NCBI RefSeq assembly: GCF_023897015.1
Contig: NZ_JAMHFY010000003.1
Coordinates: 248,001-312,000 of the forward strand
DNA length: 64,000 nucleotides
Direction: 5' to 3'
DNA from: Desulfosporosinus nitroreducens
Lineage (GTDB): Bacteria; Bacillota; Desulfitobacteriia; Desulfitobacteriales; Desulfitobacteriaceae
Position numbers and translations under genes: made by a program. Under the pieces are notes generated by a model, which searched no databases, was not told where the DNA came from, and worked only from the letters and a program-made list of their open reading frames with translations. Numbering within the stretch: position 1 is the stretch's first letter; each line of letters opens with the position of its first letter. Shown piece by piece: positions 3,159-23,052 of this stretch.

Positions 3159-3788
3159 ATGGCGGTTAAGGCACAGCGTATCTATTCTGAACAATGGAAT
3201 CCTTCGGGGGAAGAAATAAAGAGTCTTTTTCCTGTAGATGACTTGAAATCTGAAATTGGAAGAGACCCTGGAATAAAGGTGCTTCGTGATGATGAAATAA
3301 GACTTCAGTATCCGGGACAATATAATATCTCTGTTCAGGCTAGAGCATACAATCAGCAACTAGTTCAACTCTTACAGGAGTATTATACTACCTACTGTAA
3401 TAGTCCCGAACTTGCAGGTTTACTTGGGATTCAGATACCTCAGATTATGTGGGTGGATACATTAGGCTTTGAAGAAGCTTTAATTAGTCTTCACATTTCA
3501 AAGCTTAACAAACAGGAAATCTTCATTAATGATATCGTCTTAGTTAAGAATGAAGACTTCGATCTATTAAGTGAGGGTACTATGGAAAAGATACTTAACA
3601 ATTTGCGACTATTTGCTAAAGAACAAGGGGCAAAGTATCTATCTGGATATGCCACTAACCGAAGCACTTTGAATCTACTGAAAAGTAAAGGATTTATTGA
3701 AGACAAGAGAGAAGGCATGGGTAACGATTACTTGTGGAGAATAGCAACTATCAGGGGCGAGCAATTGCCCTTCTATGAGGAGTTGTAA
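3159..3788 (+). CDS. Unrecognised protein with a GNAT-like C-terminal segment
   Basis: A 209-residue soluble protein. The N-terminal 120 residues match nothing I recognise. The C-terminal part (MEKILNNLRLFAKEQ, then TNRSTLNLLKSKGFIEDKR) resembles the last helices and strand of a GNAT fold, so a divergent acetyltransferase is possible, but a clear acetyl-CoA loop is not visible. The stop codon is six bases before the next start, and its last codons contain that gene's ribosome site GAGGAG. The two genes are therefore probably cotranscribed and translationally coupled. Start ATG at 3159; the upstream site GAAAGGCGTG is plausible. Confidence 0.65.
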   Translation: MAVKAQRIYSEQWNPSGEEIKSLFPVDDLKSEIGRDPGIKVLRDDEIRLQYPGQYNISVQARAYNQQLVQLLQEYYTTYCNSPELAGLLGIQIPQIMWVDTLGFEEALISLHISKLNKQEIFINDIVLVKNEDFDLLSEGTMEKILNNLRLFAKEQGAKYLSGYATNRSTLNLLKSKGFIEDKREGMGNDYLWRIATIRGEQLPFYEEL

Positions 3789-3793
3789 TCTTG

Positions 3794-4402
3794 ATGTCAA
3801 GTAAAATAACAGTCTTCTCGGATTTCTTATGACCCTTTTGTATGATAGGGAAAGTCCCCCTTGACCAGTTGGCCAAGGATAAAAATTTAACTGTAGAATG
3901 GAAAGCTTTTGAACTTAGGCCAGAGGGGATTGAACTCCCTGAGAAATCACCGGAATATTTGGCCAGAGCGAAGGCTGGTGTTGAAGCTTTAGGGAAAAAG
4001 TACGGGCTCCATATGAACTTTAATGAAAAGAGCAAGCACTCAAGATTAGCCCTGGAAGGGTCTAAATTTGCGGAAGAACAGGGGCTTGGCAATGCATATC
4101 ATGATGCAGTTTTTGCGGCTCAGTTTCAAGAACAAAAGAACATTAATGATGTAGGCGTTTTAATCGAGCTGGCAGGGCAGATTGGACTGGACAGTCAAGA
4201 ATTTAAGCAGACTCTCCTTAGCGGGAAATATAAACAAGCTGTATCCCAGGATATAGCTGAAGCTCAGCATCTGGGAATTCAAAGTGTTCCTTGTTTCATT
4301 GTTGATGGTCGTGCAGTCCATGGAGCCCAGAGTTATGAAGCTCTGGAGAAGTTCCTTCAGGGAACAGGGGGCGGGTTTCCGTTAGATATTAAATTAAAAT
4401 GA
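3794..4402 (+). CDS. DsbA/FrnE-family oxidoreductase with probable active-site selenocysteine (in-frame TGA)
   Basis: Reading from ATG 3794 gives MSSKITVFSDFL, a TGA at 3830-3832, then PFCMIGKVPLDQL and an open frame to 4402. FrnE/DsbA2-type proteins normally read VFSDFxCPFCxxGK here, so the TGA falls exactly on the first Cys of the CPFC active site, giving UPFC. The total is 202 residues with Sec at 13, the usual family length. The cis-proline region is SVPCFIVDGRAVHGAQS. A suitable hairpin follows (3859-3878). A start at the later ATG 3842 would remove the first strand and the redox motif. Ribosome site GAGGAG at 3777-3782 lies 11 bases upstream. Predicted role: thiol/disulfide (selenenylsulfide) redox chemistry, substrate unknown. 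The alternative is a nonsense-mutated pseudogene, but the rest of the frame is intact. Confidence 0.82.
3859..3878 (+). promoter_or_regulatory. Candidate bacterial SECIS hairpin
   Basis: CCTTG pairs with CAAGG, then after one A-C mismatch CC pairs with GG, closing a 4-nt AGTT loop whose second base is G. The loop begins 34 nt after the TGA, within the spacing generally accepted for bacterial SECIS elements, and G near the 5' side of the loop is their main sequence requirement (SelB contact). It lies inside the coding frame, as usual for bacteria. A second small hairpin, GGGA/TCCC at 3848-3858, is less fitting. Confidence 0.6.
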
Positions 4403-4454: not shown

Positions 4455-5153
4455 ATGGAGTTAACTGATGAACAGAAAAAGGCGTTAAAAGGACGAGGCT
4501 ATATCGTCTACAAAGATGGTATTCATTTTTCCTGCAGGGTGTTAATACAGGGAGGCAGTATGAATGCCCAGGAAGCTCGAAAGATCACAGAGGTCAGTGA
4601 GAACTATGGCAGGGGTTATTTTACCTTAACCCAACGCTTAAACGTAGAAATACCTTGGATCAAGTATCAGGATTTAGAGACTGTCGCACGTGAGCTTAAG
4701 GAAGCGGGGCTGTCGGCAGGAAGTACGGGGATGAGGGTAAGACCGGCACTCACCTGTAAAGGGGATGTTTGTCAAGTTAGCTTTTTCGATACGGCAGAAG
4801 TGACTAAGCAAATTAATGAAAAGTTTTATACAGGGAAATACGATATTGCACTTCCTAATAAATTCCGAGTAACGATTAGTGGATGCAGGAATGGTTGTTC
4901 GAAACCGCAACTTGGATGCATCGGATTGCAAGGGCGAAAACAGGGCCAAATAGCGATTACTATCGGAGGAATGTTCAGTCAAAAACAACATGTGGGAAGA
5001 GAGTTGCCTGGTTTATACTCTATTAGTGAGGCGCTCAATATTGTGGATAAGGCTATGGAATTTTATCGTGAAAATGGTCTAAAAGGGGAACGATTTGCTA
5101 AAACTGTGGAAAGAATCGGGTTTGAAACTGTTGCAAGCTTCCTAACAGTGTAA
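4455..5153 (+). CDS. Short siroheme/4Fe-4S nitrite-sulfite reductase-like protein
   Basis: A 232-residue protein with the nitrite/sulfite reductase ferredoxin-like half-domain (about residues 10-85, GRGYFTLTQRLNVEIP) followed by the siroheme-4Fe-4S domain. The cluster/siroheme cysteines are visible as C101-x4-C106 and C144-x3-C148 (SGCRNGCSKP). It is much shorter than assimilatory sulfite reductases and lacks a second repeat or flavin domain. It therefore belongs with the small single-domain proteins found in anaerobes, whose substrates (sulfite, nitrite or other) are mostly unsettled. Start ATG 4455 has GGGGAGGAG upstream. It follows the UGA-containing DsbA-like gene by 52 bases and may share its transcript. 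Confidence 0.82.
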   Translation: MELTDEQKKALKGRGYIVYKDGIHFSCRVLIQGGSMNAQEARKITEVSENYGRGYFTLTQRLNVEIPWIKYQDLETVARELKEAGLSAGSTGMRVRPALTCKGDVCQVSFFDTAEVTKQINEKFYTGKYDIALPNKFRVTISGCRNGCSKPQLGCIGLQGRKQGQIAITIGGMFSQKQHVGRELPGLYSISEALNIVDKAMEFYRENGLKGERFAKTVERIGFETVASFLTV

Positions 5154-20901: not shown

Positions 20902-20924
20902 ATAATCATGACAAGTGAATATTA

Positions 20925-20993
20925 GTTCATATAAAAGCAGAGATAAGGTCTGCTAGTTTCTACCGGGCTGCCGTAAATCGTCCGACTATGAGC
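20925..20993 (+). promoter_or_regulatory. Purine riboswitch aptamer, guanine type, copy A
   Basis: All parts of the purine aptamer are present: P1 GTTCAT/ATGAGC, P2 GCAGA/TCTGC with loop GATAAGG, the J2/3 core TTTCTACC, P3 closed by CGGGC/GTCCG with a TAAAT loop, and J3/1 GACTAT. The specificity base (C in GACTAT, position 20986) is the pyrimidine that selects guanine or hypoxanthine rather than adenine. It lies 25 bases after the -10 box and controls a PucG-like gene. Confidence 0.9.
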
Positions 20994-21103
20994 GAAAGTG
21001 TCCTAGGAGTCAAATCCAAGTTAACAGATTGCAAGACTTATCAAAAAGTTAATCTGTATTTGGATTATTCCGTTGGGTAAATTGCGATCCGCAACCCTAA
21101 GCT
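20994..21103 (+). promoter_or_regulatory. Extra conserved domain behind aptamer A
   Basis: Between aptamer and terminator lies about 110 nt not needed for a standard purine switch. Elements shared with copy B: GCGAAAG directly after P1, ATCCAA pairing with TTGGAT, TTTGGATTATTCCG, GGGT pairing downstream with ACCC, then CTCTCAC in the terminator. In this copy GAAAGTGTCCTAGG resembles the start of ykkC-class aptamers. It may be a second aptamer or an elaborate antiterminator. Confidence 0.5.
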
Positions 21104-22853: not shown

Positions 22854-22879
22854 AAACTCTAGGTCAGCAAATAAATAGT

Positions 22880-22948
22880 GTTCATATAGTAGCAGAGATA
22901 TGGTCTGCAAGTTTCTACCGGACTGCCGTAAATGGTCCGACTATGAGC
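22880..22948 (+). promoter_or_regulatory. Purine riboswitch aptamer, guanine type, copy B
   Basis: P1 GTTCAT/ATGAGC, P2 GCAGA/TCTGC with the canonical loop GATATGG, core TTTCTACC, P3 with TAAAT in its loop, and J3/1 GACTAT with the guanine-selecting C at 22941. It is nearly identical to copy A and precedes the molybdenum hydroxylase operon. Confidence 0.92.
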
Positions 22949-23052
22949 GAAAGATGTACTAAAGGCAATATGCCAATTGTACAGATCCAAAGACTTTATT
23001 TATAGGTCTAAATTTGTTTTTGGATTATACCGCAGGGTCAGATCCCAGGCGG
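22949..23052 (+). promoter_or_regulatory. Extra conserved domain behind aptamer B
   Basis: After GCGAAAG a hairpin TGTAC/GTACA encloses GGCA/TGCC. Then ATCCAAA pairs with TTTGGAT around an AGAC/GTCT stem, followed by TATACCGCAGGGTCAGATCCC, in which GGG pairs with CCC and CCGC with GCGG. The order of elements matches copy A although the sequences between the motifs have diverged. Confidence 0.5.

Follow-up and report, generated by a model that had tools for sequence, protein, structure and literature searches.

The stretch of DNA analyzed here (64,000 nucleotides of Desulfosporosinus nitroreducens, referred to below as the window) carries at 3794-4402 on its + strand a complete gene for a probably cytoplasmic thiol-disulfide oxidoreductase of FrnE type (DsbA-like, COG2761), in which the in-frame UGA at 3830-3832 is almost certainly read as an active-site selenocysteine (Sec). 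The original prediction, a probable selenoprotein with a UPFC motif, is supported by the Sec machinery of the genome, the TGA/Cys pattern among homologues, the constraint on the SECIS region and the FrnE fold, all of which are read at the level of sequence. The frame is organized as follows: ATG at 3794 is followed by 12 sense codons (MSSKITVFSDFL), TGA at 3830-3832 and CCC TTT TGT (Pro-Phe-Cys), exactly as the prediction had it, and the frame past the TGA is fully open as claimed, although it has 189 codons rather than 190 before the TGA stop at 4400-4402. The product is 202 amino acids long. A Shine-Dalgarno-like GAGGAG (3777-3782, + strand) lies 11 nt 5' of the ATG within the 3' end of the preceding ORF, in agreement with the idea that the gene has its own ribosome site, and several orthologues have GGAGG-type sites upstream. 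As anticipated, the table-11 ORF list places the start at ATG 3842 and gives a 186-aa ORF (3842-4402, + strand), the truncated form expected from a standard gene caller, in which the UPFC active site is lost. The present reading thus corrects a gene that standard callers cut past its active site throughout Desulfosporosinus.

The identity of the protein was assessed by sequence and by predicted structure. It matches PF01323 with 131.1 bits (gathering cut-off 25.6) and its first phmmer match is Deinococcus radiodurans FrnE; an NCBIfam profile search gave only a sub-threshold match, to another Se family. The AlphaFold model has a mean pLDDT of 93.1 and its best structural matches are FrnE structures (TM 0.81-0.83). 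Helix 1 begins at the active site (U/C-P-F/W-C, residues 13-16), and the invariant Pro166 is in the predicted cis-Pro loop; Sec13-Pro-Phe-Cys16 thus stands where the family has CPFC or CPWC, and the TGA is indeed at the first Cys of that motif. Since the HCCA-isomerase and GST-kappa folds are also among the structural matches, could this be a selenoprotein of one of those types and not a disulfide oxidoreductase? We consider this very unlikely, as FrnE structures come first by both sequence and structure, and the UPFC motif and an FrnE-like cis-Pro loop are present.

The FrnE-type protein of the window shares with D. radiodurans FrnE (5cnw and others) its fold, about 31% identity, the position of the active site and membership in the cytoplasmic thiol oxidoreductase class, and differs from it in having Sec where that protein has Cys. 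In D. radiodurans FrnE a C-terminal CX4C motif regenerates the active site (PMC8945050), whereas the window protein sequence has no C-terminal CX4C (its only Cys residues, besides Sec13, are Cys16 and Cys167), and so its route of re-reduction must differ. The motif is not required in FrnE, as the D. maricopensis and S. roseofulvus proteins also do without it (PMC8945050). In the model strand 1 starts as early as residue 4. A signal peptide would not fit ahead of it, and a cytoplasmic location is therefore probable.

The fold places the TGA at a redox-active position; is it conserved there in other genomes? The closest named relative of the window is Desulfosporosinus lacus, at 99% identity. 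Orthologues are present in 27 of 30 Desulfosporosinus genomes and all 27 have the in-frame TGA, which, where the codon was read out, is always at the Sec13 position, with Cys in none. On the Bacilli side seven loci (Aneurinibacillus, Paenisporosarcina, Evansella, Terrihalobacillus, Aquibacillus saliphilus, Sediminibacillus and a Bacillota MAG) have TGA at this codon, as do a broken Paludifilum copy and three Chloroflexi MAGs whose proteins are 36-40% identical. In all, 37 of 37 distinct orthologous sequences from independent isolates and MAGs have the identical TGA, so it can be neither chance nor a sequencing error. The actinobacterial FrnE homologues of Geodermatophilaceae and Kineococcus (about 33-36% identity) have TGT or TGC in the same alignment column, and two more distant homologues from the window's own family (L084 and L085) have Cys there. 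Across the alignment the column holds Sec or Cys only and never Trp, and the other invariant residues are D10, P14, C16, E40, A109, P166 and G177. The original prediction had proposed to look for TGA versus Cys at this codon, and the outcome is TGA among the close relatives and Cys farther away; an in-frame UGA that is conserved at a redox-active site where other homologues have Cys is the mark of a selenoprotein.

If the TGA were instead a true stop, the gene would be a pseudogene or would be translated only from ATG 3842 without its redox motif. The ORF caller's choice of that start is in keeping with such a reading, and so are decayed copies in Aquibacillus halophilus and probably Paludifilum (L055:4820-5240 and L056:4930-5265; the Paludifilum copy is frameshifted). 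However, the twelve codons that precede the TGA are kept as protein with synonymous change and, as had been claimed, are normal family sequence that aligns also with the Cys homologues; the second active-site Cys is as invariant as the TGA itself in the 37 distinct sequences; and a start at 3842 would delete strand 1 and the motif from the fold. Other nonsense changes in the frame, which the prediction had named as evidence against itself, are found in no intact orthologue and occur only in the decayed remnants of the two Bacilli. We therefore regard a true stop as extremely improbable.

Two observations on paralogues were made in the course of these comparisons. Three Desulfosporosinus genomes (L136:1003-1566, L137 near 627 and L138 near 1020) have a second paralogue of FrnE type in which the TGA occupies the same position (SDYI-U-PFCYIGK); its full copy is 28% identical. 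In Terrihalobacillus (L042:4326-4985) the Sec form is directly preceded, on the same strand, by a Cys-form FrnE-like paralogue with CPFC.

The DNA 3' of the Sec codon (GGGAAAGTCCCNCTTGACCAGTTGGCCAAGG) is near-identical from Desulfosporosinus through Bacillaceae and folds as two adjacent hairpins. The first (3848-3858, + strand; GGGA-AAG-UCCC) has three invariant G-C pairs, and the second (3860-3877, + strand; CUUGACC-AGUU-GGCCAAG) is, judged by its folding, its constraint and the published model, the probable SelB-binding apical stem-loop of a bacterial SECIS (bSECIS). That model has a loop of 3-9 nt, a stem of 4-16 bp and a distance of 16-37 nt from the UGA, with a G in the first two loop positions that is mostly followed by G or U (PMC13188914). 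The second hairpin has this geometry: its 7-pair stem (with an A-C mismatch in many sequences) carries an AGUU loop at 3867-3870, 34 nt past the UGA, with G at loop position 2 and then U. Folded alone it has a minimum free energy of -7.1 kcal/mol here, just short of the published bSECIS threshold (at or below -7.5 kcal/mol), and the versions of two relatives have -7.9 to -8.0 kcal/mol; the whole two-hairpin region has -12.5 to -12.9 kcal/mol. The first hairpin is a less likely SelB-binding apical loop, as its loop (AAG, AGA, AAA or ACA) has no conserved G.

Because the element is nearly invariant, covariation statistics are weak (in 62 of 500 shuffles the score is at least as high as that observed) and were discarded as the chief proof; synonymous-site constraint was used in their place. 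In the hairpin codons (GGG AAA GTC and CTT GAC CAG TTG GCC AAG) the same-codon pair fraction is 0.93-0.97, compared to 0.46-0.48 for the gene's other codons (Mann-Whitney p about 4e-7), and codons vary freely just before the hairpins (P, C, I), between them (P, whose third base is unpaired) and after them. The Evansella sequence (L043) has one double compensatory change, G-C to A-U, and G-U variants also occur. A single hairpin, different from these, stands about as far from the UGA in the Chloroflexi orthologues and in the second paralogue of Desulfosporosinus, which is as expected, since bacterial SECIS elements have little sequence resemblance to each other (PMC13188914). The window gene thus offers a clear and strongly constrained bacterial SECIS from outside E. 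coli.

The selA, selB, selD and tRNA-Sec (selC) genes that the prediction required of the genome are all present: it has two each of tRNA-Sec (anticodon UCA), SelA, SelB and SelD, and both SelD have an in-frame TGA of their own. Among the 30 genomes of the genus 28 have a SelB match, and the two without are 79-85% complete. D. orientis has been reported to have two tRNA-Sec genes and 13 selenoproteins (PMC5330540). That the UGA is read as some other amino acid, either Trp (a code change) or Cys (an opal-reading tRNA-Cys), might be entertained on the grounds that Cys is the family residue at this column and that tRNAs with UCA anticodon exist in the genome, but we give it next to no weight, since UGA is a normal stop for 5 of the 32 long ORFs of the window and for this very gene, the tRNAs in question pass the Rfam cut-off as tRNA-Sec and share their contigs with sel genes, Trp is absent from the column, and there would be no reason for the downstream hairpins to be conserved. 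Presence of SelB was considered as a means to tell Sec forms from Cys forms and does not separate them cleanly, because the actinobacteria whose FrnE has TGT or TGC (L049-L054, L057) likewise carry a SelB-like gene that passes the cut-off.

The host genome has two deeply diverged Sec systems (G000 contigs C95:88863-97276 and C66:52780-61678; L002, L003, L010, L011, L018). One of its SelB clades is common to the whole genus, and the SelB of the second selA-selB-tRNA-Sec cluster has relatives only in G017 and G028 among the 30 genomes.

From these features we infer Sec insertion itself as well as the direction of the redox reaction and its substrate, and the following mechanism is proposed. SelB carrying Sec-tRNA(Sec) would bind the hairpin just 3' of the UGA at its AGUU apical loop, and the ribosome would then decode the UGA as Sec rather than terminating. 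In the folded protein the nucleophile would be Sec13, where helix 1 begins, Cys16 would resolve the selenenylsulfide, and the cis-proline loop with Pro166 would position the substrate. D. radiodurans FrnE is a predicted cytoplasmic disulfide oxidoreductase whose loss gives greater sensitivity to cadmium and diamide (PMC8945050), and Lmo1059 (PMC10715225) was used as a second analogue. By analogy to these proteins the role is most likely cytosolic disulfide reduction or exchange, in which Sec13 would attack and Cys16 resolve, and its setting is most likely oxidative or sulfur stress.

How new is such a protein? We take COG2761 in the 2005 table of Sec-containing families to be the FrnE family. 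As the prediction had stated, DsbA-like Sec variants with UxxC exist: they were catalogued in 2005 from Sargasso Sea data (DsbA-like form 1, COG2761/PF01323; Zhang et al. 2005, PMC1088965), are listed again in PMC5029168, PMC9312934 and PMC13188914, numbered 45 genes in 41 bacteria by 2016 (PMC5029168), and include a protein of Desulfotomaculum reducens, among others (PMC1794560). The Sec-FrnE of the window therefore belongs to a known family, to which it was likened by its COG and motif; the two share COG, UxxC and a predicted bSECIS just past the UGA, and no difference in kind was found. In the SECIS region of the window gene two hairpins lie side by side, and the AGUU apical loop is 34 nt past the UGA. 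In the literature on FrnE and selenoproteins that was searched, no bacterial paper calls the Sec family FrnE. The compact two-hairpin SECIS, and a link to sel gene clusters in Bacilli (below), may be modest new points, as neither was met in that literature. The gene is easily mis-annotated even though its selenoprotein family is already known.

In three Bacillaceae the Sec-FrnE gene or its broken remnant lies directly after selA, with selB adjacent. In Sediminibacillus halophilus (L045:471-5573) tRNA-Sec, selB, selA and Sec-FrnE are within about 5 kb, the Sec-FrnE ATG is about 17 bp past the selA stop, and selD is nearby. Aquibacillus saliphilus has selA directly upstream of Sec-FrnE, and the end of selB is at the locus edge. 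A. halophilus has selA and selB upstream too, but only a remnant of the gene itself, from which the UGA/PFC segment is gone and in which the sequence of the second hairpin survives. Formate dehydrogenase, where found, lacks an in-frame TGA in 8 of 9 such Bacilli genomes, whereas SelD has one in 9 of 9, which makes Sec-FrnE a plausible major selenoprotein in these organisms by comparison with those two proteins. It is possible, though doubtful, that this mostly halophilic Bacillaceae group keeps its Sec machinery mainly for Sec-FrnE (besides SelD) and that the two-hairpin SECIS is a distinct class. If so, an FrnE-based redox function would sustain the Sec trait where formate dehydrogenases, if present, use Cys. 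A thiol oxidoreductase encoded directly 3' of selA gives a clue to why some Bacilli retain the machinery.

The neighborhood of the gene is conserved in Desulfosporosinus. The ORF at 3159-3788 (+ strand, 209 aa, no Pfam match) ends 5 nt upstream of Sec-FrnE, is immediately 5' of it in every named Desulfosporosinus locus, and is a probable operon partner; by eye its C-terminal half is GNAT-like. On the 3' side there is usually a small sulfite-reductase-like protein gene and then two menaquinone-type genes. In the window, 4455-5153, directly downstream, encodes a stand-alone sulfite/nitrite-reductase-like protein of 232 aa with NIR_SIR domains, whose score does not reach the cut-off of any named sulfite reductase family. 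These neighbors, together with a SLAC1-type channel, suggest a sulfur or redox context. Elsewhere in the window, two purine riboswitches lie about 1.9 kb apart on the + strand (20907-21008 and 22862-22963).
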